From Arthrobacter globiformis (GTDB lineage Bacteria; Actinomycetota; Actinomycetes; Actinomycetales; Micrococcaceae), in NCBI RefSeq assembly GCF_003261175.1, contig NZ_QLNP01000084.1, positions 1 through 64,000 of the forward strand: 64,000 bases of DNA, written 5' to 3'. Made by a program: the position numbers and the translations under genes. The notes under the pieces were generated by a model. That model had not been told where the DNA came from, searched no databases, and worked only from the letters and a program-made list of their open reading frames with translations. Of the stretch, positions 64 through 47,600 are shown piece after piece; positions within the stretch are counted from its first letter, which is position 1; every line of letters begins with the position of its first letter.

Positions 64-2069
<2,006 letters not shown>

Positions 2070-3186: not shown

Positions 3187-3210
3187 CTGACGGAATAATA
3201 ATTATCAGCG
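3187..3210 (+). repeat. dif-like recombination site A
   Basis: Left arm CTGACGGAA, 6-bp spacer TAATAA, right arm TTATCAGCG. It is the first of six co-oriented 24-bp sites with identical 9+6+9 spacing, and it marks the left edge of cassette 1. One mismatch in each arm relative to the array consensus TTGACGGAA / TTATCGGCG. Confidence 0.7.
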
Positions 3211-3409
3211 TTCGCTGTGGCCTCATTAGAGGAGACGGGGTTCCCTTTCAGTTGCTGCCAGTCTTGTCCCCCGACGGGAAGGACCTGACTTCCTGGCCCC
3301 AAAGCTATGCTGGCCGACGGTCGTTAACGCCGGCAAAGCTATGGAAGATCTGATCCTCCCCCAGACGGTTCGTTATAGAGTGCAGCAAAGGATCAAATCG
3401 GGGGACAGC

Positions 3410-5080
3410 ATGGCATTGAAGAAGCAGCGCATCCGGAGCAGCTTCAATCTGGGCGGCGAGCAGGCAGAGGCAGACTCGCTCCTAGAGGAGGCATTTTTTG
3501 AGACCGGAGACTATGAAATGATCGAGTCTCGGACTGAGAGCAAGTGCTTCGTCATCGGGCGAACGGGGGCGGGAAAATCTGCTGCATTATCAAGGATCGA
3601 GGACCTTCACCCGGAGCACGTAATTCGGATCAACCCTGAAGACCTGTCTCTTCCGTACATAACGAACCTTCAAGCAATTCGGTGGCTAGATAGTCTCGAA
3701 GTTAATCTGGACCAATTTTGGATCGCCCTGTGGAAGCACGTCATCTTGGTCGAGGTTATTCGGCACCGATATAAGGTCGACTCCCCCGTAGCCAAGAGTA
3801 ATATGCTCGCAAATCTTCGGGACTGGATCCGGAACGACCGAACAAAGGCAGCTGCCCTCGAGTACTTGGACGAGTTTGAGGGCCGTTTTTGGTGCGAAGC
3901 TGATGAGCGCGTCAAGGAAATCACAGACACCTTTTCACAAAAGGTGTCTGCCGAGGCCGGAGTTAAGTTCGGCGTTCCTGCGATCGACTTGACGGCAGGA
4001 ACAAGTGGCGAACTCGGTAGGTCGACGGCGACTCGGGCCGAACTAGTCGACCGTTTTCAGCGCCTAGTGAACGAAACTCAACTGGCCCGACTGAACAAGA
4101 TGATGGAGATTCTCAACGACCACGTTTTGGATTCTGAACAGCACTTCACCTACCTCATCATCGACGACCTCGACCGAGACTGGGTGGACGAGCGCGTCGC
4201 CAATGACCTGATTAGGTGCTTGTTCAGCACGGTGGTCAGCCTAAAACGCGTCACGCGCCTCCGAATTTTGGTCGCGCTCCGAACAAATATCTTTCAGGAA
4301 CTAGACTTTGGCAAGCGTGGAGCTGCGCAAGAGGAAAAATTCCGGGCCCTCGTGTTGCCCTTGAGATGGACGAGAACCTCTTTAGAGCGCCTGTTGGATG
4401 AGCGCGTGAAGGCAGCCACCAGCGGTGAGGAAGAGGGACCAAAGACGGTTCGTGCCCTCCTCCCACATGCGAACAAGACCCGCGGCAACCCTCTGGATTA
4501 CATCCTGGATAGGACACTTCTTCGCCCCCGCGATGCAATATCCTTCGTCAATCTCTGTCTACGTGAGAGCGTTGACAAGCGAGCGGTAAGTTGGGAGGCC
4601 ATACAGGCTGCTGAACCTGGTTATTCTGAGGGACGGCTACTGGCGCTGCGGGATGAATGGAAGCTAACGTATCCCGGAATCGATCAAGTGCTGAACAAGC
4701 TCAGAGGTTGTTCCTCAGCCATGTCCGTGCCGGAGTTCGTAGCCGTTCTTGAAGACATAGCACTGCTTACTGCAGAAGCAGATTTCCCGGGTACGCAGTG
4801 GCTGACGACCGCAACTGCCGGAGTGTGGGCTGCGGCTGAAGGTGAGGCTTGGCATGTAACTTACGGCCCGCTCCTAAAAGTTCTCTATTCGCTGGGGATC
4901 GTTGGCATCGCCGCAGACGGCAGCAAGGCGCCGAAGTTCCATTTGGATGACCCGGCGCTTATTGATCGGCGTAGTCGGATGGACACATGCAAGAGCGTAT
5001 ACGTTCACCGAATGCTACATTCCGCCTTAGACGTGCGTCGGCCTCAGGAGCGACGGGGGCAAGCTCCCGAGGATTATTAG
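3410..5080 (+). CDS. KAP/Sll1717-like P-loop ATPase (cassette 1 cargo)
   Basis: This 556-aa protein has Walker A GRTGAGKS (about 50-57) preceded by an acidic LGGEQAEADSLL segment, and a Walker B YLIIDDLDRD at about 247-256. A strand with an arginine (LRILVALRTN) follows. This layout resembles KAP/Sll1717-type P-loop ATPases, many of which occur near anti-phage genes. The ATG at 3410 has a GGGG ribosome-binding stretch; an in-frame ATG at 3341 would add 23 residues. Base composition is visibly less GC-rich than the surrounding chromosome, suggesting transfer. It is the only clear gene between dif-like sites A and B. A defence role is inferred, not shown. Confidence 0.72.
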   Translation: MALKKQRIRSSFNLGGEQAEADSLLEEAFFETGDYEMIESRTESKCFVIGRTGAGKSAALSRIEDLHPEHVIRINPEDLSLPYITNLQAIRWLDSLEVNLDQFWIALWKHVILVEVIRHRYKVDSPVAKSNMLANLRDWIRNDRTKAAALEYLDEFEGRFWCEADERVKEITDTFSQKVSAEAGVKFGVPAIDLTAGTSGELGRSTATRAELVDRFQRLVNETQLARLNKMMEILNDHVLDSEQHFTYLIIDDLDRDWVDERVANDLIRCLFSTVVSLKRVTRLRILVALRTNIFQELDFGKRGAAQEEKFRALVLPLRWTRTSLERLLDERVKAATSGEEEGPKTVRALLPHANKTRGNPLDYILDRTLLRPRDAISFVNLCLRESVDKRAVSWEAIQAAEPGYSEGRLLALRDEWKLTYPGIDQVLNKLRGCSSAMSVPEFVAVLEDIALLTAEADFPGTQWLTTATAGVWAAAEGEAWHVTYGPLLKVLYSLGIVGIAADGSKAPKFHLDDPALIDRRSRMDTCKSVYVHRMLHSALDVRRPQERRGQAPEDY

Positions 5081-5206
5081 CAGCCCATTCGGCGCTTCCC
5101 ATCCATTTGGCTGCTAGGAAACCGGACGCCGAAAGGCACTGGCACGAGGTTCAAGTCGGCGGCGTAGGTCCGGTATGGAAGCCGCCATCATTCGTATTCG
5201 GCAATC

Positions 5207-5230
5207 GTTGACGGAATATCCATTATCGGC
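5207..5230 (+). repeat. dif-like recombination site B
   Basis: Starting near 5207, the left arm is TTGACGGAA (consensus), the spacer TATCCA and the right arm TTATCGGCG (consensus), followed by TTTTT. The right arm is identical to the XerC-side arm of the actinobacterial dif consensus as I recall it. The site separates cassettes 1 and 2. The spacer differs by one base from that of site E. Confidence 0.75.
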
Positions 5231-5337
5231 GTTTTTCTGGTCCGGAAAGTGCAGGGCTGGCGCCCGAACCTCCGCGTTCACCCAGGGCGGGGCGGAACGA
5301 AGTCCTAGGCCGGTCGTGGTGTCGTCTCGGGTTAGCG

Positions 5338-5480
5338 CCGGACTGCGGCGGGTTTGAAGCCCTGTGTAGCGAGTCATTGGCCCGGGCGTGGAATTTTCCG
5401 GCTAATGCGTAGGCCTCACGCGCTACTTGGGTGAATTCTTCGCCGGCGAGGTCACCGGCCCAGTCCAGCAGATCGGCGAC
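5338..5480 (-). pseudogene. Coding remnant of unknown function
   Basis: On the minus strand a coding-like stretch begins VADLLDWAGDLAGEEF and runs through AREAYALAGKFHARAND. It has good codon usage but no start, and a TAG lies directly upstream at 5481-5483. It looks like an internal fragment of a decayed hypothetical protein inside cassette 2, upstream of the kinase gene. I do not recognise the family. Confidence 0.3.
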
Positions 5481-5618
5481 CTATCGCGCTCCCCTTTGTG
5501 TAATACTAAGCAGTCTTACTACCCTTCGCGTTGCACCGGGCGGTTGTGAGGCTGGGCGAATATTCCGCGCCTGACAGCAGGCCGGATACGACAGATGAGA
5601 CGCTTTGTGGGAGTTCGC

Positions 5619-7313
5619 ATGACTGAGGGGCAACGGCCCGATGTGGCCGGGCAGCTGATGTGCCAGCGGTACCGTCTCCAGGAATTGGTAGGTCGGGGTG
5701 CCGCGGCGGCGGTGTACAGGGCGGTCGACGAAGCATTAGGCCGTGACGTGGCCCTGAAACTCTTCTCCAAGGAAGGCGGCGAGCCAGAGTTGCTGGCCCG
5801 TCAGCAAGCCGAAATCCGGATTCTCGCTTCGATGATCCATCCGTCCCTGGTGACATTGTTCGATGCCGGCACGGACCCGGCTATGGAACGCAACTACGTG
5901 ATCATGGAATACGTGCCTGGCCCGGACCTCCGCCGCCACTTGCGCACCGACGGCCTGACGCCTGCCGACATCGCCGCTGTGGGAGCTGATCTGGCATCCG
6001 CGTTGGACTATATCCACAGCCGCGGCGTAATCCACCGCGATATCAAACCCGGCAACGTGCTGCTGCACACTCCCGACCCGAGTGAGTCGGGAAAGCAGTG
6101 GCGCGCCAAGCTCACCGATTTCGGCATTGCCCGGGTGATGGAGGAAGAGCACCTGACCAGGACAGGGTGCACCGTCGGCACTGCCGCCTACCTGAGCCCG
6201 GAGCAGGCCCTCGGTGAGCCGTTGAACGGCGCCAGCGACGTGTACTCCCTGGGTCTGGTGCTGCTGGAGTGCTTCACCCGCAGGGTTGAGTTTCCCGGGA
6301 ACCAGATCGAGTCCGGTGTGGCAAGAATCCACAGGAGCCCCGTCATACCCGACAACGTCGACACTGAGTGGAAAACCCTGCTGACCGCGATGACCGCCAG
6401 GCACCCGGCTGACCGCCCCTCTGCAGCCGAAGCCGCGACCGCGCTGCAGCACCTGGTTCTGGTACCGGACGCTGCAGCTCCCCCTGCGCCTCAAACATCT
6501 GTGAGCATCGCACCTGTACCGCAGCTGGGCAATCGGCCGTATCCGCCCGCTCCTTCACGCCGCCCAACTGTTACTCCGCGCATGCGCCGTAAACACGGCA
6601 GCCGTGTGCGGACACTCATCGTTGCATCCGTCGCGGCGGTTATTCTGGCCGGCACCACGTCCGCGACATTCGGGCGAGGTGGCCCGGATCAATCGGCGGC
6701 GCCCGCACCACAAGCAGCCCTCGTGCAAAACAATCCTCTGGATTTCCATTTGCAACAGCTCCAGTCAGCCCTGGAGCCCTTACCCGTGCTCCTGCCAATC
6801 CTTGACCAGGTACGCCAAGACATAAGCGACGAGGACCTGCACAGCGCCCTTGCGCACCTGGACCGCCTCGAAAAGGACGCGACCGACGAAGCCGCACGTG
6901 ACGGCTTGACGTTCGAGCAGTACCGGAACATAACTGCGGCCATCCGCCTGGTACGCAACGATCTGCAGACACTCATCGCCGCTTCCACAAAATCACCCGT
7001 TGAGGCAATTTCCCCCGTCTCTAAACCCGCCGCCGCGCCCGAGGGCATTCCCGCAGTAAACCGGGAACTTGCTCCGGTCGCCGTCGTGAACCCGGCACCT
7101 GCCCAAGCCGTATCCAACGATCCCGTCCAGCAAGAGAACCAAGTCATGATCGACAATCAAGCCAAGCCCACCCCCGGCCCCGCCGGCATCGACGAGCCCG
7201 TCGCCGTCGACAAGTCCGCCGCCGTCGACAGGCCCATCCCCGGCGCCTCCCGTGTCGGCAAGCCCAAACGCGACAAGCCCCACAACCACAGCGGCACAAA
7301 GGGCCACAGGTAG
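5619..7313 (+). CDS. Membrane-anchored Ser/Thr protein kinase (cassette 2 cargo)
   Basis: This 564-aa PknB-type kinase has a Hanks kinase domain at about 15-275: a glycine loop VGRGAAAAVYRAV, the ATP-binding Lys in VALKLF, the catalytic loop HRDIKPGN (about 139-146), DFG (about 167-169) and a TVGTAAYLSPEQ activation segment. A Pro-rich linker and one TM helix (about 329-348) lead to an extracytoplasmic helical domain. The tail is rich in repeated D-x-S/P-A-A-V-D units and ends in basic residues. There are no PASTA repeats, so a peptidoglycan-sensing PknB is unlikely. Start 5619 is preferred; 5595 is also in frame. It is the main gene between sites B and C. Confidence 0.85.
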   Translation: MTEGQRPDVAGQLMCQRYRLQELVGRGAAAAVYRAVDEALGRDVALKLFSKEGGEPELLARQQAEIRILASMIHPSLVTLFDAGTDPAMERNYVIMEYVPGPDLRRHLRTDGLTPADIAAVGADLASALDYIHSRGVIHRDIKPGNVLLHTPDPSESGKQWRAKLTDFGIARVMEEEHLTRTGCTVGTAAYLSPEQALGEPLNGASDVYSLGLVLLECFTRRVEFPGNQIESGVARIHRSPVIPDNVDTEWKTLLTAMTARHPADRPSAAEAATALQHLVLVPDAAAPPAPQTSVSIAPVPQLGNRPYPPAPSRRPTVTPRMRRKHGSRVRTLIVASVAAVILAGTTSATFGRGGPDQSAAPAPQAALVQNNPLDFHLQQLQSALEPLPVLLPILDQVRQDISDEDLHSALAHLDRLEKDATDEAARDGLTFEQYRNITAAIRLVRNDLQTLIAASTKSPVEAISPVSKPAAAPEGIPAVNRELAPVAVVNPAPAQAVSNDPVQQENQVMIDNQAKPTPGPAGIDEPVAVDKSAAVDRPIPGASRVGKPKRDKPHNHSGTKGHR

Positions 7314-7423
7314 GTAGGCATTCTCGGCGCACGGCGATCAGTTGCACGACCGACCGAAGCGAGGTAGCTGGGTCGACGTATGCATCCACTCGGACCGCCG
7401 GTAACTCAGGCGACGAGGCCTAC

Positions 7424-7447
7424 TTGGCGGAATCGCGGTTATCGGTG
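7424..7447 (+). repeat. dif-like recombination site C
   Basis: Left arm TTGGCGGAA, spacer TCGCGG, right arm TTATCGGTG. One mismatch in each arm from the array consensus. The spacer differs by one base from that of site F (TCGTGG). It separates cassettes 2 and 3. Confidence 0.65.
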
Positions 7448-7543
7448 TTTCGCCACTGCCGTGCTGGTCCCGGTCGGCAAGGGAGTTCCCAGCTCCGGCC
7501 TGGCCCGCGATGACGGGATCACCCGGGTGCCGGGCTCCCCCGG

Positions 7544-8230
7544 TTATTTGTCCGTTGCTGTGAGTGCTGCTGCGAGGCCGGAGAGGAGGATGCCTAGTCC
7601 TTCGTCCAGTTCCCGGGCGCCGTCATAGTCGGCCAGCACCGGGGCAAGTGCCCTGAGCCGGGGAAACTCCTTGGCCGGGAGGTGGTACAGGCCCAAACGC
7701 AGGACCGCATCGCTTTCGTCCGGATTCGCCACCAGTTCCTGCAGTTCGTTGAGCAGGTGTCCGTAGAGGAATGCGTAGAAGGCGCGGTAGACGTGCAGGG
7801 CGGCTGCGGGCGTGAAGCCGGCGTCGATCAGCAGTGCGAGGATCTGCTCCAGCGGCCTGACCGTCCCGTGTGGGCGCAGGCCCAGGGGGGTCGACAGTGG
7901 CCGGGTCATCAGCAGGGGCACGACGTTGGGGTGCAGGAGCGCGAGCCGCCGCATGTCATGGGCGGCACCTCGCAGCGTAGCCTGCCAGTCCATCCCGTGC
8001 GGGACGGTCAGTTGGCCCAGGACGAGTTCAGTCAGGCCGTCCAGGAGCGCCGACCGGTTCTCCGCGTACCGGTACAGGCTCATCGGGTCACGGCCCAGCC
8101 TCTGCCCGAGCCGGCGCATGGTGAGCGCTTCGAGCCCTTCCTCATCCACCAGTTCCAGGGCGGCGGAAAGCACTCTTGCCCGGTCCAGCCGGGGTTTCCG
8201 GCCGGAACCGGCTGTGTTGCCCTCGCTCAT
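7544..8230 (-). CDS. TetR-family regulator with tetracycline-repressor-like C-terminal domain
   Basis: This 228-aa regulator has an N-terminal helix-turn-helix (LTMRRLGQRLGRDPMSLYRY, about 40-59), and the rest is all-helical like the TetR_C class. It is transcribed leftward, away from the small gene at 8440, with a shared upstream region of about 210 bp that could hold its operator. No efflux gene is adjacent, so the ligand and targets are unknown. It lies between dif-like sites C and D, and its orientation opposes the other cassette genes except the 10.2-kb gene. Confidence 0.85.
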   Translation of the reverse strand: MSEGNTAGSGRKPRLDRARVLSAALELVDEEGLEALTMRRLGQRLGRDPMSLYRYAENRSALLDGLTELVLGQLTVPHGMDWQATLRGAAHDMRRLALLHPNVVPLLMTRPLSTPLGLRPHGTVRPLEQILALLIDAGFTPAAALHVYRAFYAFLYGHLLNELQELVANPDESDAVLRLGLYHLPAKEFPRLRALAPVLADYDGARELDEGLGILLSGLAAALTATDK

Positions 8231-8439
8231 GGCTGGATCCTTCCCGCCTGCCCCGGCGCGGGAACAGGATGCGGCTTCCGTTATCTACCCCTGAAGTCTA
8301 CAATGTAGGCATACGGGTGGGAACCCGGCCGTTTAGCGGCGATCCGGTGACAGCTACAGCGCCCAGTGCAGGGCGCCGGAGCCCAGCTGCTGCAGCCACG
8401 TGGCAGCCTTACCTGCACCGGAAACGAAAAGAGCCAGCC

Positions 8440-8640
8440 ATGGCCGTTTCACAGTTCGATCAGTTTCTACACGACGCCACTATCTGCGACCCGGACGCAG
8501 GGTCCACGCTCGGGCGCGACCGGCTCTACGGGCTTTACATCAGCTGGTGCACCATCACCCAGACCCGGCCTCGAAGGGAACGCTCCTTCTGGGCGGCAAT
8601 GCACCGGCGGGTAGACCCCGACCAGAACAGCCTGCGCTGA
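8440..8640 (+). CDS. Small protein, possible D5/primase-type winged-helix fragment
   Basis: This 66-aa protein starts at an ATG preceded by AAAAGAG. It contains LYGLYISWCTITQTRPRRER followed by SFWAAMHRR. This pattern (Y-x-x-W-C ... R-x-F-x-x-x-L/M-x-x-R) recalls the short C-terminal winged-helix domain of phage and plasmid D5-type primase/helicases. On that view it could be a free-standing domain or a small regulator. The resemblance is by eye only. It is followed about 50 bp later by another co-directional gene in cassette 3. Confidence 0.5.
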   Translation: MAVSQFDQFLHDATICDPDAGSTLGRDRLYGLYISWCTITQTRPRRERSFWAAMHRRVDPDQNSLR

Positions 8641-8692
8641 AAGGCCCGGCCGCAGCGGACTATCTCCTGTCCAGCTACCCTAATCTGGTCTG

Positions 8693-9193
8693 ATGCCGCC
8701 CACGACCCCTTCCGGCAGCCGCTACCCGGCCGAAGACCACCCGCCATGCGGGCAGCGCCCCTGGTGCATCACGTGCGGCACCGACCAGCACCTGCTCGCA
8801 GAATCCATCACCGTCCTGGACACCTCAAGCGGATCCATCGCCGTCGCGTTCAGCTGCTCCTCCTGCCGCGGCTCAAGCGCCCTGGCAACCAACGCAGAGT
8901 CCCTCGCCCCGGTCCTGGCCCGCTACCTCGGTCCGGACGAGGACGTCGTCCACCTCGGCGCCATGTACGTTCACTGCGGCGAACCAATGACCCCCTCGGA
9001 CCCGGCACGCCGGATGTTGGAACGTCCGGTTTACACCGAGCCCAGCCCGACCGACATTCTGGGCGCCTACCTGCAGACCCGGGTCCTGCACTGCAGGTGC
9101 GGATTCCAGCTGGAGCCGCCCCCGGGAGAAGCCACCGAGAGCCCAATCCGACGGAATCACGCCCATCGGCGTTTAGCCTCAGCTCACAGATAA
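8693..9193 (+). CDS. Hypothetical cysteine-rich, zinc-ribbon-like protein
   Basis: This 166-aa protein has paired cysteines typical of zinc binding: CITCG (about 25-29), CSSC (about 55-58), an isolated CGEP and CRCG near 134-137. Its N- and C-terminal tails are Pro/Arg-rich, with no signal peptide or TM segment. It lies 52 bp after the 66-aa gene in the same direction, so the two may be co-transcribed within cassette 3. I do not recognise a named family. Confidence 0.6.
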   Translation: MPPTTPSGSRYPAEDHPPCGQRPWCITCGTDQHLLAESITVLDTSSGSIAVAFSCSSCRGSSALATNAESLAPVLARYLGPDEDVVHLGAMYVHCGEPMTPSDPARRMLERPVYTEPSPTDILGAYLQTRVLHCRCGFQLEPPPGEATESPIRRNHAHRRLASAHR

Positions 9194-9264
9194 CGAGAGA
9201 TTCGCGCGCAGTAGAAGCCCCTCGGCAGCTGCTCTGGATCATCTCCATCATCGGGACGTTCTGG

Positions 9265-9288
9265 TGGACGGAACCTCCGTTATCGTCG
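9265..9288 (+). repeat. dif-like recombination site D
   Basis: Left arm TGGACGGAA, spacer CCTCCG, right arm TTATCGTCG. It has the same 9+6+9 layout and orientation as the other five sites. It separates cassettes 3 and 4. Confidence 0.6.
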
Positions 9289-9339
9289 TCGAATTCGGTC
9301 ATCAATAAACGAGAATCTCGCTGAAAGCGGCATAGGCTG

Positions 9340-9882
9340 ATGAGAATGGATGACGCGTCAGCAACACCGGAACTGCCTGATCACCGGACATACACCGCCA
9401 TGACTCAGGAGGGCGAAGCCGCTGTAGGCCGCATCGCCATATGGGCCGCTTATGTGGAGCAGCACTTGGTGGATCTGTGCGCAGAGTTGATTAATGAAGG
9501 CAATGCGGCTGTTGGGAACACCGTGACTGCCAACATGAGCGCTTCCTCCATGATCCAGCTTGCGAAGAAGCTACTACTCGAATCCGATACGACCAGCGCT
9601 GAAAACAAGGCCGTCACTCTGGCCGCGCTAACTGAAGCCAAAGCAGCCCTGGAAGAACGCAACAAGATCCTGCACGCCACCGTTGGCGGTTCGCTAGTAG
9701 AGGGTTCAACCACGTTCTGGAACAGTCGAAGAAAGAGGTTTACTTCCGGGGCGTTAGCAGGACAGCTGGAGGCCGCTCAGCATAGTCCAGCGGAGCTAGA
9801 CGCACTCGGTGCACGTCTATACAAGGCGATGGATGACCTCTGGGAATGCTATCTGTCCGTGAGCTCTCGAGGAGAGAAATAG
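9340..9882 (+). CDS. HEPN-like helical protein, candidate RNase (cassette 4 cargo)
   Basis: This 180-aa, predominantly alpha-helical protein contains EERNKILHATVGG, in which R107-x4-H112 fits the R-x4-6-H signature of HEPN-fold ribonucleases. A helical N-terminal half (IWAAYVEQHLVDLCAELI) and C-terminal helices flank it, as in many HEPN proteins of toxin-antitoxin, abortive-infection and CRISPR systems. No antitoxin gene is evident next to it. Composition is less GC-rich than the core genome. It is the sole clear gene between sites D and E. RNase activity and a defence role are inferred from the motif alone. Confidence 0.55.
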   Translation: MRMDDASATPELPDHRTYTAMTQEGEAAVGRIAIWAAYVEQHLVDLCAELINEGNAAVGNTVTANMSASSMIQLAKKLLLESDTTSAENKAVTLAALTEAKAALEERNKILHATVGGSLVEGSTTFWNSRRKRFTSGALAGQLEAAQHSPAELDALGARLYKAMDDLWECYLSVSSRGEK

Positions 9883-9900
9883 CCCCAGCAGAGGCTAGCT

Positions 9901-10005
9901 CTGCGTGATCCTCCTGGGTTCCACCGCCGCAAGAACGGGGAGCAGGAGAAGTCCCTGGCGGCCTTCCACGATGCGGCACCGGCGCGCGCTGTCCTGGAAG
10001 ACTAG
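9901..10005 (+). pseudogene. Short coding remnant
   Basis: A stretch ending at TAG 10003-10005 reads as an open frame with residues such as FHRRKNGEQEKSLAAFHDAA and no start codon. It may be the 3' tail of a decayed gene left between the HEPN-like gene and site E. No family is recognised. Confidence 0.22.
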
Positions 10006-10060
10006 CCAGGTCCCGGTACAGGGAGTCGCCTGGGGGGGCTCATCGTACTACTCCCCCAAG

Positions 10061-10084
10061 GTGACGGAATATCCGTTATCGACG
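10061..10084 (+). repeat. dif-like recombination site E
   Basis: Left arm GTGACGGAA, spacer TATCCG, right arm TTATCGACG. One mismatch in each arm. The spacer differs from that of site B at one position. It separates cassettes 4 and 5. Confidence 0.68.
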
Positions 10085-10230
10085 CTCACTGTTAGTGTTT
10101 CCCGCGCGGAAAAGTCATGGACGCGTCTGCGCGTCGACGCAAGAGGCGGCGCTTTCGTTCATTCAGGCGTGCGCACCTTGCGAGCCACCCGTGCCCGCTT
10201 GCCCGGGGCTTTTCTCTGCTAAATTGCAGC

Positions 10231-10818
10231 CTACTTCCGGGTCATTGTGACGCTGGCGTCGTGGCGACCATCGGACCTGTCACCGACGCAAATCTCGGTC
10301 ATGCTGTTGCTGTCGCGGTTCGTCATGCAGGTTCCGCTACCATATCCTTCGGCTTTGAACTCATCGATGTTCTTACCAAGGCGTGAGGCAACTTCGTCAA
10401 CGGTTACCTCATGGTCAACGGCCCACGCAACTTCCAGCCTTAGGCAGTGGGTGTCGATGGACAGGCAGCCGGGGTCAATCTTCCGCTCAAACCGGTGAAT
10501 TTCGGTCCAACCGTCCTCCCGTACGTTATCTACTGCAGCCCTCATGGCCGCAGCCTTCTCGGCTTGGCTTCCGCCGCCTCCGTTGATCTCGCTCACCAAG
10601 GCGGAGCAGCCGACGAACAGTAGGATTCCGCAGATCATCAGGGAGAGAGCGATGATGCCGAGAATCCATCCCGTCTTGCTTTTCATGGGTGGAGGCGGAG
10701 CCCATTGCTGGGGCGGGCCGTACTGGGGATACTGCTGAGGGTTCTGTGCATAGTACTGCTGGGGCGGATAGGGAGGCTGATTTGGGTGACCCGGTCCCTC
10801 ATGTCTCTGCGGCTCCAT
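10231..10818 (-). CDS. Single-pass membrane protein with Pro/Gln/Tyr-rich N-terminus
   Basis: This 195-aa protein has a cytosolic N-terminus of about 45 residues rich in P, Q and Y (repeated PQQY-type units). One hydrophobic helix follows (about 50-72, WILGIIALSLMICGILLFVG), then an extracytoplasmic domain of about 120 residues with four cysteines (CLSIDTHC, CMTN, ICVG) that could form disulfides. This is the general plan of actinobacterial DUF4190/DUF4333-like envelope proteins, although no specific family is certain. It is the only protein gene in cassette 5 and is read leftward. Confidence 0.65.
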   Translation of the reverse strand: MEPQRHEGPGHPNQPPYPPQQYYAQNPQQYPQYGPPQQWAPPPPMKSKTGWILGIIALSLMICGILLFVGCSALVSEINGGGGSQAEKAAAMRAAVDNVREDGWTEIHRFERKIDPGCLSIDTHCLRLEVAWAVDHEVTVDEVASRLGKNIDEFKAEGYGSGTCMTNRDSNSMTEICVGDRSDGRHDASVTMTRK

Positions 10819-10951
10819 ACCGCTACCCCCATACTCTTTTGCCCGGACCTTTGACGGGACGACCGTGCGTTTTCCTCCCCGTTTCTTTCGGAGACGATCA
10901 TGTCATATCGAACCTGTCACCCCTAATAAGGTCGCCGAAAGGACGACCTCG

Positions 10952-11035
10952 TGGAGACTAGCGGATTCGAACCACTGACCACGGATGGATGAAGGGCGCC
11001 TTCCCATCCCACGATCTGCCTCTGAGCTAGAGCCC
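10952..11035 (-). tRNA. tRNA-like sequence, probably degenerate
   Basis: Read on the minus strand there is a TAGCTCAGAGGCAGATC D-arm-like segment and a good T-arm (AGTGG TTCGAAT CCGCT). The acceptor ends GGGCTCT and AGTCTCC pair at only about five of seven positions. The place of the anticodon arm is taken by an extended hairpin: GGATGG and GAAGG pairing with CCTTC and CCATCC around CGC, with an AU bulge. A normal 7-nt anticodon loop cannot be drawn. A hairpin AGGTCG/CGACCT follows at 10929-10949 and may be a terminator. It could be a decayed tRNA or a structured RNA. It sits within cassette 5. Confidence 0.4.
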
Positions 11036-11244
11036 AGGCCCGGTGCCGGGCGCCGAATAGTCCCGTCACGGCTTCGCCGCTTCGACGACCAGGACGGAGA
11101 ACTGGGCTTACTTCACGAATCACCTTTCCCAGGCGTTCCATCGGGCGGAAGCACCCGGTCACGGACTGTGCACGTGGGAGGAACGACACACAATCGTGGA
11201 AACGCATTGCCGGCGCTGTGAAGTGACAACAATCAGCGGGAGGT

Positions 11245-11268
11245 TGACGGAATCGTGGTTATCGGCGT
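11245..11268 (+). repeat. dif-like recombination site F
   Basis: Starting near 11244, the left arm is TTGACGGAA (consensus), the spacer TCGTGG and the right arm TTATCGGCG (consensus). This is the last site of the array and lies inside the decayed 3' end of the HIRAN pseudogene. The spacer is one base different from that of site C. Confidence 0.75.
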
Positions 11269-11895
11269 ACGAAAGCCGTGAGAAGCGGGGCGCCAAGCGT
11301 CGATGAAGAAGGCAAGAAGCCGAAACGTTGGAGTCGTTGAAGGGCTCAAGGCCTTGGCATCGAGGTGAGGCCGAGCTCCAATTGAGTTCGATGTCGCCTT
11401 CGAATCCGCCCATCGCGTTCGGGTAGAGGATTTCACTGTCCGAGCCTTCGAGCAGGCGTTCTTCAGGCCGGCCACGCCAGCCGGCGGCAACGTCAAGCCG
11501 GCGCAGGTCCTGGGTGCCTTCCACATGGTCCAGCAGACACCGGACCGCAGCTTCTGGGCCACGCAGGAGGATAGGTCCAGCCGCGGATCAGCGGGCGCCG
11601 GCCACGTCTGTGGCAATGACCAGAAACTGCTGGCGAGCCCGACGTCGCATTTGTCGGCGTGCCTTGATGGTAATCCGGACAGCACGGAGCTAGGCGTTGT
11701 CACGGCTGGGTATCCGACGAGATGGTTCTTTATGCGAATGCAGAGTGCGTTTGCATCGCGCGGGTTGCCTGGTTCGGGGACCAGATAAGCCGGGCGCCCG
11801 TTCGATCTGGTCATCAAGTTTGGTTTGCGACCCGACACGGCAGAGGGACCTGACGTTGGGTTGGGACAGGCGTCGAACAGGACTTGGCATGCCAC
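11250..11895 (-). pseudogene. Degenerate HIRAN-domain gene
   Basis: At about 11690-11790 on the minus strand one frame reads LVPEPGNPRDANALCIRI followed by NHLVGY. This is a good match to the HIRAN domain core (E-P-x-N-P-x-D-x-N-A ... V-G-Y) of DNA-processing proteins. The coding signal then moves to another frame (LLDHVEGTQDLRRLDVAAGW ... SDSEILYPNAMGGFEGD) and meets an in-frame TGA near 11598-11600. A frameshift and a stop therefore indicate decay. The 3' end overlaps dif-like site F, so a recombination event may have truncated it. Confidence 0.45.
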
Positions 11896-13393: not shown

Positions 13394-13567
13394 ACGATAG
13401 AAAATCTATCAGATAGTTCGTTCACGAACAATTCGCGGGCTAATGCAGCTTTCAGTGCACTGGTGTGCGGCTGTGTTCACCCTCCTCAATGCAGTGTCAC
13501 CTACCGTTGTTGAGACCCCGCTCGGCAAAAAAGCCTGGGCCGGAGAAAAAGGCGAGAAGGCCAAGCG

Positions 13568-13696
13568 CGAGATTCCGTGGGCCGGTTCGCCCAGCTCGAC
13601 GAGGTCGCGCCCCTCGTTGCCTACCTTGCCAGTGACGTTGCCGCGATGATCACCGGCACCAACGTCTTGATCGACGGCGGATTTACCACCGTCTAG
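13568..13696 (+). pseudogene. C-terminal fragment of a short-chain dehydrogenase/reductase
   Basis: The frame RDSVGRFAQLDEVAPLVAYL then ASDVAAMITGTNVLIDGG ends with FTTV and TAG at 13694-13696. This is the standard last 40 residues of a classical SDR (E-V-A-x-L-V-x-Y-L-A-S-D ... I-T-G ... D-G-G). There is no Rossmann or YxxxK segment upstream, so only the 3' tail of a deleted gene remains. Confidence 0.7.
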
Positions 13697-13955
13697 TCAG
13701 GTCGTCGCACAACAGCGGAGCACGCTGCATTCCGAGATGTTCCGCTGTTGTGTGAGGCCCGAAGGTCAAGAGGCCCTAAGGGCTCTCAGTTCCGCCGCGT
13801 CGTCGGTCGGTGAGCCAAGCAGCGCCAAATTTGAGTACACCCCAACCGGACAAAGCGGAAACTGTCCCATTTTCGGCGGATCAACCACCCCGTGGGCTCC
13901 GTGCTCGAAACGGGCCATCGATGGAGGATAAATAAAGGCAGGCGTTGGGTGCCAG
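13697..13955. other. Intergenic region with an IS-end-like repeat
   Basis: No gene is seen. The sequence at about 13836-13854, read on the minus strand as TGTCCGGTTGGGGTGTA, matches copies near 20208, 30995 and 31085, and resembles an insertion-sequence terminal repeat. Confidence 0.35.
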
Positions 13956-16591: not shown

Positions 16592-17077
16592 TCACACCCC
16601 TGCAGGATTTCCCGGTCGAGCGGAGTCCGCCTGACAGGACTTGAGAAGGCGGGGCATGGCCTCGTACAGTTCTTCGGCGCCCTCGGGGCTAAGACCCAGT
16701 CTGCCGAGTATCGTTCCTGAAATCGGAAGTGTCCGCCTGTACAGGGCCGCCCCTTTGGCGGTGAGGCTTACCGCATCCGGAGCGTTGCCGTCCCGAACCC
16801 GCAGGCTCTCGATGTAGCCAGACTCTTCGAGTTGCAGGAGTACCGGCGACAAGCTCCCCGGTTCCGGTAACAGGTCACCGATCTCCCGCCCCGGACGGGG
16901 ACTTCTCTCCCAGAGCGCGAGCATCACGAGGTATTGCGGATGCGTCAGGTTCAATTCCTGCAGAACCGGCGTACAGGCGCTGACGACCGCCCGCGAGGCA
17001 ACGGAAACCGCCAACACAAGCTGCTGCTCAAACAAAACATCATCGTCCCCCCCAGCAGGGATAGTCATGGAAGTCAT
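16592..17077 (-). CDS. MarR/OhrR-like regulator lacking the sensing cysteine
   Basis: This 161-aa protein aligns by eye with the two OhrR-like proteins at 17391 and 19152 (LTHPQYLVMLALWE core, winged helix, LxSLLxxLEExGYI). OhrR senses peroxide through a Cys in an LCFALY-type motif near the N-terminus. Here the segment is FEQQLVLAVSVASRAV, with Val in the Cys position, so classic thiol sensing should be lost. The ATG at 17077 is chosen because upstream sequence lacks homology; a second ATG is at 17068. It is divergent from the next MarR gene across a 313-bp region. Confidence 0.85.
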   Translation of the reverse strand: MTSMTIPAGGDDDVLFEQQLVLAVSVASRAVVSACTPVLQELNLTHPQYLVMLALWERSPRPGREIGDLLPEPGSLSPVLLQLEESGYIESLRVRDGNAPDAVSLTAKGAALYRRTLPISGTILGRLGLSPEGAEELYEAMPRLLKSCQADSARPGNPAGV

Positions 17078-24749: not shown

Positions 24750-25831
24750 CCACCACCGAAGCCACACCCCGCACAGCAGGGACCGCCAGTGCCCTCACGC
24801 GCACCCATTCCCTTCGGCAGGTCCTGCAGGTTCAGTCATTCCAGATCCTGCTCGTCCTGCTCGTCATCTTCCTGATCTTCGCCGCCATGGCACCGGAGGT
24901 GTTCCCGACCTGGGGCAATGTCCGCCAGATCATCCAGAATGTCTCCATCCTCGGCGTCCTCGGCATCGGCATGACGTTTGTTATCGTCACCTCGGGCATC
25001 GACCTGTCAGTCGGCTCCAACCTCGTCTTCTCCGGCGTCGTAGCTGCCAAAGTCATGCAGTCCATGGGCGACGCAGGATGGGGAACGGCGTTCGTGGGCA
25101 TCATCGTGTCCATCGGCTGCGGACTCGGATGGGGCCTGCTCAACGGCGTCCTCATCGCAAAGGCCAAGGTCCCGCCCCTGATCGTCACGCTGGGCACCCT
25201 CGGTGGCGCGCTCGGGCTCGCCCAGGTCATCACCGGAGGCGTGGACATCCGGGAAGTTCCCGCGGTTCTGCAGGACACCATCGGCTACGGCAACGTCCCC
25301 GGGACCACGCTGCCGACGATTTCCCTCATCGCGATGGTGCTCATCGTGATTTTCGGAATCGTGCTGCACCGGACCCGGTTCGGCCTCTACACGTTCGCCA
25401 TCGGCTCCAACGAAGAGTCGGCCCGCCGGGTGGGCGTGAAAGTGGACCGCCAACTGATTTCCATCTACGCACTCTCCGGCGCCCTGGCCGGTGTGGCGGG
25501 GATCCTCTCACTGGCTCAGTACGGCACTACGGCCATCGCCGGTCAGTCCGCAACCAACCTGAACGTGATCGCCGCCGTCGTGATCGGCGGAACCTCACTT
25601 TTCGGCGGAGTCGGCACCATCTTTGGAACCGTCGTCGGGCTCTTCATCCCCGCAGTCCTGCAAAACGGATTCGTGATCGTCGGCGTCCAGCCGTTCTGGC
25701 AGCAGGTCGCCGTCGGCGCAGTCCTCGTCGCCGCCGTCTACGTCGACCAGCGCCGCCGGGCCGCCGCGGCCCGCGGCCATTCAGCCAAAGATGACGGCAA
25801 GAAGAGACTTTTCGGACGCCGATCCAACTGA
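24746..25831 (+). CDS. Sugar ABC transporter permease (RbsC/FrcC-type)
   Basis: This 361-aa BPD_transp_2 permease has about 8-10 TM helices. Motifs include GIGMTFVIVTSGIDLSVGS and AIAGQSATNLNVIAAVVIGG followed by TSLFGGVGTIFGT, the usual carbohydrate-uptake-2 hallmarks. It overlaps the ATPase gene by ATGA. The C-terminus is Arg/Lys-rich. A homodimer would form the membrane channel with the FrcA-type ATPase. Confidence 0.93.
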   Translation: MTTTEATPRTAGTASALTRTHSLRQVLQVQSFQILLVLLVIFLIFAAMAPEVFPTWGNVRQIIQNVSILGVLGIGMTFVIVTSGIDLSVGSNLVFSGVVAAKVMQSMGDAGWGTAFVGIIVSIGCGLGWGLLNGVLIAKAKVPPLIVTLGTLGGALGLAQVITGGVDIREVPAVLQDTIGYGNVPGTTLPTISLIAMVLIVIFGIVLHRTRFGLYTFAIGSNEESARRVGVKVDRQLISIYALSGALAGVAGILSLAQYGTTAIAGQSATNLNVIAAVVIGGTSLFGGVGTIFGTVVGLFIPAVLQNGFVIVGVQPFWQQVAVGAVLVAAVYVDQRRRAAAARGHSAKDDGKKRLFGRRSN

Positions 25832-46494: not shown

Positions 46495-47600
46495 ACTGGC
46501 ATCCTCCTGTCCCCCGCCGGGTAACCGACGCTGAAGGACGCGTCTGGTCGGTCCAGCGCGCATGGCCCGGCACCACGGCGGGCCGGTACATCTTGGAAGT
46601 CCGCACACCGGGCCGGCCCGGTGTGCTGGCGGGACTTTACCGCGAGGGCCGGTTCGACCCTGTCACGGTGAATGACCGCCGCCTGCCCGCTCTGGCCGGA
46701 GAGTCATCCAAGGGCGAAGTTGTGGTTCACCGCGCCCACAGACGTGCCGTGCTGCGCACTCCGGTGAGCTACATCAAGGTGCTTCCACCCGGGTGGGCGC
46801 CGAACGCGGCAGCCAGCCACACCATTGCGGCCGCTCCCCTGGCCGGGGCCGGCTTCAACACGCCCCGCCTCATCACCGCCGGGCGGGACGTCCTGGTCTT
46901 CAGCCCCGTCCCCGGCCGCTCCTTCTATGAGCTCGGCCAGGACCAGACCGGAATCACGGACGCGTTCTACGCCGCCAAGTGGGCGCAGTGGCAGCGGGCG
47001 TGGATTGAAACCGTGGCCAGTGCCAGCAGCCCGGCATTCCGGAGCAGCTTGGAGCGTCTCCCGCTGCATGACGCGGAGGAGGAAGCCGTCAGCCTGCGGC
47101 GTTGGATCGACCACTGGCTGCGCCACAGCGAGGGCATTGCCGAAGCTGCCGAGGCACGCGCTGCCCTTATGGTGCAGGCGGATGCAGTCACCGCCGCCCT
47201 CCTCGCCCAGCCCCGGGATCCTCTGGGTTGGGCTCACGGAGACCTGCACGAGAAGCAAATGCTCGGCACAGACCACCCGGGCGCCCCGGGCCTGCTGGAT
47301 TTCGACGAGTCCTGCCGGGCCGAGGCTGCCCTGGACTTGGCTAACTTGGACGTCCACGTGGAACTGAGGTGGCGGCAACACCTACTCACCACCGGCCGGT
47401 ACATCATCGCCCACGCCAGCATCATGTCCTCGGCCGAACGCCTTGACGTCAGCCCCGGCAGGCTTGCCGCCTATTGCGCGTCAGCACGCCTACGGCTGGC
47501 CTGCATTTACTCGTTCCGCCCGCTATGGGGACCGCAACGAGCGACGTATGCAACGTCGCTGGTTACGGCGCATCCGGAACAGACACGGTTTGGAACCTGA
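46491..47600 (+). CDS. Second APH-fold phosphotransferase
   Basis: This 369-aa protein has the kinase signature WAHGDLHEKQ (HGD at about 248-250) followed by LLDFDESCRAEAALDLANLD, the D-F-D metal site. The N-terminal half carries VTDAEGRVWSVQRAWPG and RYILEVRTPGRPGVLAGLY, with a Lys in SYIKVLPPGW that could bind ATP. It overlaps the previous gene by ATGA, and 1 bp separates it from ugd. Two adjacent APH-fold kinases within one glycan operon is unusual. Confidence 0.78.
   Translation: MNWHPPVPRRVTDAEGRVWSVQRAWPGTTAGRYILEVRTPGRPGVLAGLYREGRFDPVTVNDRRLPALAGESSKGEVVVHRAHRRAVLRTPVSYIKVLPPGWAPNAAASHTIAAAPLAGAGFNTPRLITAGRDVLVFSPVPGRSFYELGQDQTGITDAFYAAKWAQWQRAWIETVASASSPAFRSSLERLPLHDAEEEAVSLRRWIDHWLRHSEGIAEAAEARAALMVQADAVTAALLAQPRDPLGWAHGDLHEKQMLGTDHPGAPGLLDFDESCRAEAALDLANLDVHVELRWRQHLLTTGRYIIAHASIMSSAERLDVSPGRLAAYCASARLRLACIYSFRPLWGPQRATYATSLVTAHPEQTRFGT

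Follow-up and report, generated by a model that had tools for sequence, protein, structure and literature searches.

What are the six short, regularly built sites near the start of contig NZ_QLNP01000084.1 of Arthrobacter globiformis (assembly GCF_003261175.1), and do they mark the joints of gene modules that can move? We analysed positions 1 to 64,000 of this contig, hereafter the window, in which an earlier note had described an array of dif-like sites splitting the DNA into five cassettes of accessory genes, in a direct orientation that favours excision. Comparison with the genomes and plasmids of the genus shows that dif-like sites of this kind are, as far as sequence can tell, joints of gene exchange between its chromosomes and plasmids. 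We consider it probable that the array itself is a chromosomal store of small modules between directly repeated dif-derived sites, which would be moved by the host XerC and XerD.

A pattern scan of the window finds six 24-bp sites, all on the plus strand, starting at 3187, 5208, 7424, 9265, 10061 and 11244. Each consists of two 9-bp arms around a centre of exactly 6 bp, in the form TTGACGGAA-N6-TTATCGGCG. The geometry is as first described, with two starts moved by one base (5208 rather than 5207, and 11244 rather than 11245). At up to two mismatches the window holds seven matches, compared with 0.65 +/- 0.78 in 100 shuffles (maximum 3); the seventh, at 25584, lies apart from the array and is probably due to chance. 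In the whole genome from which the window comes, 13 matches are found at up to one mismatch against one for the reversed control, and a chance origin of the sites was ruled out by the shuffles and reversed-pattern controls together. The arms are canonical in sites 2 and 6, and sites 1, 3, 4 and 5 carry one change per arm relative to TTGACGGAA and TTATCGGCG and look partly decayed. The array is laid out as follows.

3187..3210, plus strand: dif-like site 1, CTGACGGAA-taataa-TTATCAGCG, one change per arm
3211..5207, plus strand: cassette 1, 2.0 kb, G+C 0.554, with an AAA ATPase gene at 3410-5080
5208..5231, plus strand: dif-like site 2, TTGACGGAA-tatcca-TTATCGGCG, canonical
5232..7423, plus strand: cassette 2, 2.2 kb, with a Ser/Thr protein kinase gene at 5595-7313
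7424..7447, plus strand: dif-like site 3, TTGGCGGAA-tcgcgg-TTATCGGTG, one change per arm
7448..9264: cassette 3, 1.8 kb, G+C 0.665, with a TetR regulator at 7544-8230 (minus strand) and small open reading frames (ORFs) at 8440-8640 and 8693-9193 (both plus strand)
9148..9171, plus strand: possible decayed extra site inside cassette 3, CCGACGGAA-tcacgc-CCATCGGCG
9265..9288, plus strand: dif-like site 4, TGGACGGAA-cctccg-TTATCGTCG, one change per arm
9289..10060, plus strand: cassette 4, 0.8 kb, with the gene of a 180-aa protein at 9340-9882
10061..10084, plus strand: dif-like site 5, GTGACGGAA-tatccg-TTATCGACG, one change per arm
10085..11243, minus strand: cassette 5, 1.2 kb, with a putative membrane protein at 10231-10818
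11244..11267, plus strand: dif-like site 6, TTGACGGAA-tcgtgg-TTATCGGCG, canonical arms

In 101 genomes of the genus, the core pattern at up to two mismatches gives 398 matches (a count that includes dif itself) against 20 for the reversed pattern, and the genome of the window ties for the most sites in the genus (13). Across 396 genomes of the order, a stricter pattern has matches in 5 of the 10 from this genus and in 1 of the 386 others. The sites occur on plasmids as well as on chromosomes of the genus, and 34 of the 41 plasmid records that carry them belong to Arthrobacter, Pseudarthrobacter or Paenarthrobacter. Among GTDB contigs, the exact pattern was found in 91 stretches: 46 from these three genera, one from a Micrococcaceae metagenome-assembled genome (MAG) and 44 from other groups, including three from Dietzia or Corynebacterium. 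Five stretches of viral contigs and nine weak matches in phage records also fit the site pattern; one IMG/VR contig (L200) has dif-like matches at 7503, 7750 and 8036, within 560 bp, whose centres are unlike those of the Arthrobacter sites.

A set of 124 distinct sites from 141 loci gives the extended motif YARS-TTKACRDAA-N6-TTATCGGCG-TTY, followed by a weak A-run, with a centre biased to nnTCCA. Neighbouring sites point the same way in 18 of 20 pairs up to 5 kb apart (binomial p 0.0004) and in 25 of 31 pairs up to 15 kb apart (binomial p 0.0009). All 19 sites in eight annotated plasmid stretches are intergenic, in DNA of which 76% is annotated as coding; the PLSDB gene tables are incomplete, which affects both figures. 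The chance that the pattern is a regulatory or protein-coding motif rather than a recombination site, an alternative that the earlier note had already named, is negligible in view of these intergenic positions and of the homology breaks that fall on the sites; no observation spoke in its favour.

To count these breaks, 121 loci (1.61 Mb, with 132 sites) were compared all against all, with a control in which the sites were shifted by 60-1500 bp in 200 trials. Left out were the loci of other groups, the Micrococcaceae MAG locus (L192), the Dietzia and Corynebacterium loci, the viral contigs and the recombinase stretches L270-L289 described below, as well as duplicates, alignments of at least 99% over more than 5 kb, alignments shorter than 120 bp and ends within 100 bp of a locus end. 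Of the 1603 ends of homology, 90 coincide with a site in each of the two partners, and 59 of the 132 sites are involved; the control mean is 0.22 and the maximum 2. Restoring L192 and the three Dietzia or Corynebacterium loci still gives 90 ends (control mean 0.15-0.23), and removing eight loci that bear the recombinase genes leaves 68 of 1341 ends, at 46 of 119 sites (control mean 0.20). All six window sites were tested, and one, at 11244, is a break: homology at 11241-11691 with contig C2 (189 kb, locus L095) of genome G198 begins on a dif-like site in both, and the left neighbour in L095, read from the sequence as a serine recombinase-like gene, differs from that in the window. A region of up to ~690 bp, which reads as a serine resolvase-like gene in L095, was observed to end at a dif-like site in L050, L065, L095, L175, L108, L058, L061, L056 and L105.

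Whole modules are shared in the same way. Both pACHL02 and the NicSoilB11 plasmid carry, between sites, a 1.6-kb module with a pRiA4b-ORF3 gene and one further gene; identity between the two is 84-86%, and the match extends 5-6 bp beyond the sites at both ends. In pJ340-114, a 0.8-kb pRiA4b-ORF3 module lies between sites at 16856 and 17674. This module recurs at 85% in pTC2, again flanked by two sites, and relatives in the FW306-07-I, NicSoilB8 and NicSoilB11 plasmids match pJ340-114 with a recognised site at one end. Between pJ337-114 and pJ340-114 both flanks are common (89% and 97%) and a different 3.7-kb module lies between them; the left homology stops at the end of the site and the right homology resumes just after the site.

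The position of the crossover can be read from the bases of the sites themselves, using pairs that are not independent, several sites recurring in many of them. For 77 pairs with common left DNA, the three variable left-arm bases agree at 0.84, 0.99 and 0.97, compared with 0.60, 0.60 and 0.50 in random pairs, and in the 6-bp centre and past it agreement approaches that of random pairs. For 13 pairs with common right DNA, the same bases agree at 0.38, 0.46 and 0.38, which does not exceed the random level; beyond the right arm, agreement is higher. The left arm thus travels with the left DNA and the joint is placed in the centre, as in Xer recombination. Within the limits of what aligned sequences can tell, these comparisons show that the crossover lies in the 6-bp centre and that modules are exchanged between replicons. 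The proposal that dif-like sites bound mobile cassettes in direct orientation is therefore upheld by the homology breaks, the host dif located below, the whole shared modules, the crossover in the centre and the intergenic positions.

Which enzymes would move the modules? The host dif is located at C64:104370-104393 and reads TTTACATAA-TGCTGA-TTATCGGCG; its neighbourhood aligns with the dif neighbourhoods of relatives, several of which have TTGACATAA-TGTAGA-TTATCGGCG or a near variant. The array lies on contig C53 and is thus not the chromosomal dif. By position under the Xer convention, we take TTATCGGCG to be the XerC arm and TTGACATAA to be the XerD arm. In the canonical array sites, the right arm is identical to the XerC arm of the host dif and the left (XerD) arm has GG for AT, in agreement with the first description of the array. 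According to one report, the dif of Frankia alni is CACGCCGATAATGCACATTATGTCAAGT, the same arms on the other strand (PMC3025954). The genome of the window encodes XerD (C3:7238, whose score of 344 bits exceeds the NCBIfam cut-off) and another Xer protein (C74:379475), which is the best XerC match at 310 bits, below the strict cut-off of 335. Three consecutive XerD-family matches were also seen in this genome at C42:82973-87604, on a contig that carries several dif-like sites.

In the mechanism that we favour, two sites would be paired and strands exchanged in the 6-bp centre. DNA between direct sites would then be excised as a circle carrying one site, and the circle could enter another replicon or locus at a lone site. 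Host XerC and XerD are the most likely enzymes, since the canonical sites have the same right (XerC) arm as dif in this genome. The GG-for-AT XerD arm and the different centre probably separate the sites from dif and from FtsK-dependent excision, which would point to XerC-first recombination. Because four of the six sites are changed in both arms, the array may be partly frozen.

A different driver would be a dedicated recombinase trio (the ‘XER module’), which would make the sites part of an integron-like system with a mobile integrase. This trio, found beside dif-like sites, consists of a tyrosine recombinase, a small helix-turn-helix (HTH) protein and a second, degenerate recombinase, and is present in 79 of 206 genus genomes. 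In six aligned copies, the tyrosine recombinase has invariant R, K, H-R, H and Y, presumably the catalytic residues of such enzymes. XER modules are also described as bearing passenger genes (PMC6305408). In 16 of 20 trio stretches (L270-L289), a site lies at the element end; the stretches were selected because they had several copies or lay close to dif, and the fraction is thus not a rate. The site is the true dif in nine and another dif-like site in seven, while L276, L277, L278 and L283 have no site at up to two mismatches beside the trio. These observations favour the trio, but others do not. No copy was found at E <= 1e-40 in the window's own genome, the very genome that ties for the most sites. 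The 38 genomes with the trio and the 63 without it show no difference in site count (p = 0.85), and among the 15 genomes richest in sites 12 have no trio. The left arms of the 16 adjoining sites are AT in 14 cases, GT in two and GG in none. Ten trio ends, read by eye, stop ~3-4 bp outside the site, from the XerD arm, and the other end has no site, as expected of an element that targets dif.

Copies of the trio from a single genome are 98-100% identical over 3.3-4.0 kb, and the trio is an insertion sequence (IS)-like element that inserts beside dif and AT-armed dif-like sites (examples are L273 at 5690, L280 at 6101 and L285 at 7550). We had also considered the trio and its adjacent AT-armed site as an integron-like attI platform; this was dropped because the copies represent an IS-like element beside a site. 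A second trio copy in L274 lies near an AG-armed site. In its insertion beside dif, the trio parallels the IS1202 family of DDE elements. A stretch of C64 in the window's own genome, over and beside dif (L052, ~9395-9440), has a 73-75 bp match at 84% to L271 and L289, in both of which the trio adjoins dif; this match suggests a lost trio insertion. We regard it as unlikely that the trio drives the sites. Host XerC and XerD are the better candidate, since site number is not associated with the trio in 101 genomes and the trio was not found in the genome of the window at E <= 1e-40.

The behaviour of the trio bears on another account, in which the sites are a mere insertion target near dif-like DNA, in the style of the IS1202 family, and the modules are old insertions. 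The trio does insert beside dif and dif-like sites, and elements of the IS1202 family are reported to insert near dif-like sites in Acinetobacter (PMC10132070). However, the 68 ends against 0.20 that remain in the break test without the known trio loci speak otherwise, and insertion beside a site does not predict that the left arm travels with the left DNA and the centre reassorts. We judge this account to be highly improbable.

Another feature was found upstream of some sites. A conserved non-coding hairpin element of ~140 bp, with arms GGTTATCCACC...GTGGATAACC, lies ~50-60 bp upstream of 14 dif-like sites, at the following hairpin-linked positions.

L054: 3226 and 11121
L143: 6206
L146: 2033
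L160: 3023
L144: 6976
L136: 5801
L116: 244
L065: 9019
L053: 10069
L150: 5259
L190: 4340
L167: 546
L067: 12508

The hairpin also occurs without a site in many plasmids of the Arthrobacter group (for example NC_019331.1 at 46790-46930); 33 records match, 25 of them typed as conjugative. It lies directly behind a DUF4913 or relaxase gene in four of eight plasmid stretches examined, and likewise in pJ340-114. Our guess is that it could be accessory DNA or resemble an origin of transfer (oriT), the oriT idea drawing on its location only. Since the hairpin is reminiscent of cer accessory DNA, and 30 of the 41 plasmid records with sites are predicted to be conjugative, the sites could be cer/psi-like Xer sites for plasmid resolution, left as remnants of repeated plasmid integrations and not bounding cassettes. 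Such sites have about 160-180 bp of accessory DNA beside the core, and the hairpin may or may not be DNA of that kind. No hairpin was found beside any of the six window sites or the other sites in hand (nhmmer, E <= 1e-3). Moreover, the modules with sites at both ends hold one or two accessory genes. We therefore think it very unlikely that the sites are such remnants.

Returning to the array as a store of modules, its gene content was described correctly in part. The ATPase of cassette 1 matches AAA_16 (Pfam PF13191, 34.7 bits) and not KAP, as it had been labelled; the kinase of cassette 2 (Pkinase, PF00069, 6e-46) and the TetR regulator stand; and the 180-aa protein of cassette 4, labelled HEPN-like, matched no Pfam family. 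The putative membrane protein of cassette 5 has a weak DUF2076 match only, below the curated Pfam cut-off, and the tRNA-like RNA claimed beside it was detected neither by ARAGORN nor in Rfam. That no recombinase gene lies inside agrees with the Pfam search, which found no recombinase or integrase among the array genes searched. The possible extra site at 9148 has four mismatches and is weak on its own; it is followed by ttta, which matches the consensus. Positions 9919-10001, behind the cassette 4 gene, match the tail of an HTH gene in G198.

As a unit, the array has no plasmid match. Some part of it is matched by 204 of 207 genus genomes, mostly in the TetR region among the matches listed, where relatives of that region are common in the genus. 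Cassette 1 has a 59% relative in G171 that lies more than 1.5 kb from any site (4.4 kb from the nearest one found, which has two mismatches), cassette 2 has an 83% relative in G144 with the nearest site 3.8 kb away, and cassette 5 (10145-11124) has an 85% relative in G033 without a site at up to two mismatches. The cassette 4 gene is present in 11 of 206 genus genomes, its own included. In G159, the match is followed after 42 bp by a dif-like site of the same orientation; in G198, the relative adjoins a weaker site (two mismatches) in the opposite orientation.

The window looks chromosomal, as had been supposed: some part of its 21.7-36.0 kb region is matched in 39 of 39 genomes searched, including chromosomes in a single contig with the ABC-transporter pair of 31.2-35.1 kb, and plasmids give short matches only. 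Positions 1-2150, which adjoin the array, hold an IS21-type istA/istB-like pair (ORFs 64-852 and 852-2069, minus strand, read by eye). A 289-bp stretch at 13486-13774 is repeated at 95% identity at C57:48342-48630 of the same genome.

Several points weigh against our reading of the array and its sites. The 90 ends come from 83 locus pairs and are not independent, and many of them, on our reading, belong to two families, the resolvase region and the hairpin region. The break at 11244 depends on one partner locus, L095, without which no window site is a break. The right joint of pJ337-114 has no site, and the left-flank match of pSI-1 ends on the pJ340-114 site, where pSI-1 itself has no recognised site. 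The right-side crossover result rests on 13 pairs, and 2 of the 20 neighbouring pairs are oppositely oriented. The relatives of cassettes 1, 2 and 5 have no adjacent canonical site, which neither supports nor excludes the module reading, and 8 of the 10 relatives of the cassette 4 gene have no dif-like site in their locus. Neither a circle nor an empty site was seen, and it is we who infer that XerC and XerD are the acting enzymes.

The nearest known system is that of the dif/pdif modules of Acinetobacter (PMC13141974, PMC12907356, PMC6449649), the genus for which the papers searched describe Xer-based gene modules. As described there, accessory genes lie between two-armed Xer-type sites with a 6-bp centre, modules recur in different contexts, arrays occur on plasmids and chromosomes (chromosomal islands of dif modules are known; PMC12907356), and elements target the sites; all of this has its likeness here. 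In the account of PMC13141974, C and D modules alternate between inversely oriented sites, a single module is not directly excisable, and modules are proposed to move in pairs or through cointegrates. Here, in contrast, the sites are mostly direct (six of six in the window, and 18 vs 2 pairs), the phylum is different, and the XerD arm frequently carries the GG change; the plasmids are Rep_3/OrfX plasmids there, whereas here Micrococcaceae plasmids and chromosomes are involved. Recurrent modules of the Acinetobacter type are found here in the genus and, within the window array, at one of six sites (11244). Because the orientation differs, we regard the array as a variant and not a member of the Acinetobacter dif modules.

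Other systems share some of these features. XER modules of Antarctic Arthrobacter plasmids come from the same genus and combine a three-gene recombinase core with passenger genes; the gene order of our trio is that of the XER module, matched by description and not by sequence, and the main text of that paper, which does not use the word ‘dif’, describes an element rather than site-bounded cassettes (PMC6305408). The three-gene core is not among the array genes searched, nor was it found in the genome of the window at 1e-40. Integrons carry small cassettes in arrays of uniform orientation, each cassette with its own site. The array resembles them in these respects and differs in having no integrase among the genes searched and in sites that are dif-like cores, not attC. 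Integrative mobile elements exploiting Xer (IMEX) and the gonococcal genomic island are described as using host Xer with a changed dif (PMC5357621); they join the chromosomal dif, whereas here the array lies off the dif contig and the sites appear to recombine with each other. No report of dif-like gene modules in Actinobacteria was found among the open-licence PMC papers that the searches listed.

We also put forward, tentatively and as a possibility that falls somewhat short of an even chance, an integrase-free cassette economy across the genus. Single genes with GG-armed sites would be excised as circles by XerC-first recombination, independently of FtsK and dif, and would shuttle between conjugative plasmids and chromosomal arrays; the hairpin copy on some modules could mobilise the circles. 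What the sites mean for the biology of these bacteria can be stated in three points. Xer-type modules would occur in a different phylum than that of Acinetobacter, with mostly direct sites that make the excision of single modules possible, and open to test in a soil genus that is harmless. They would give Arthrobacter plasmids and chromosomes a concrete way to exchange genes. Finally, dif itself is a target of the mobile recombinase trio.

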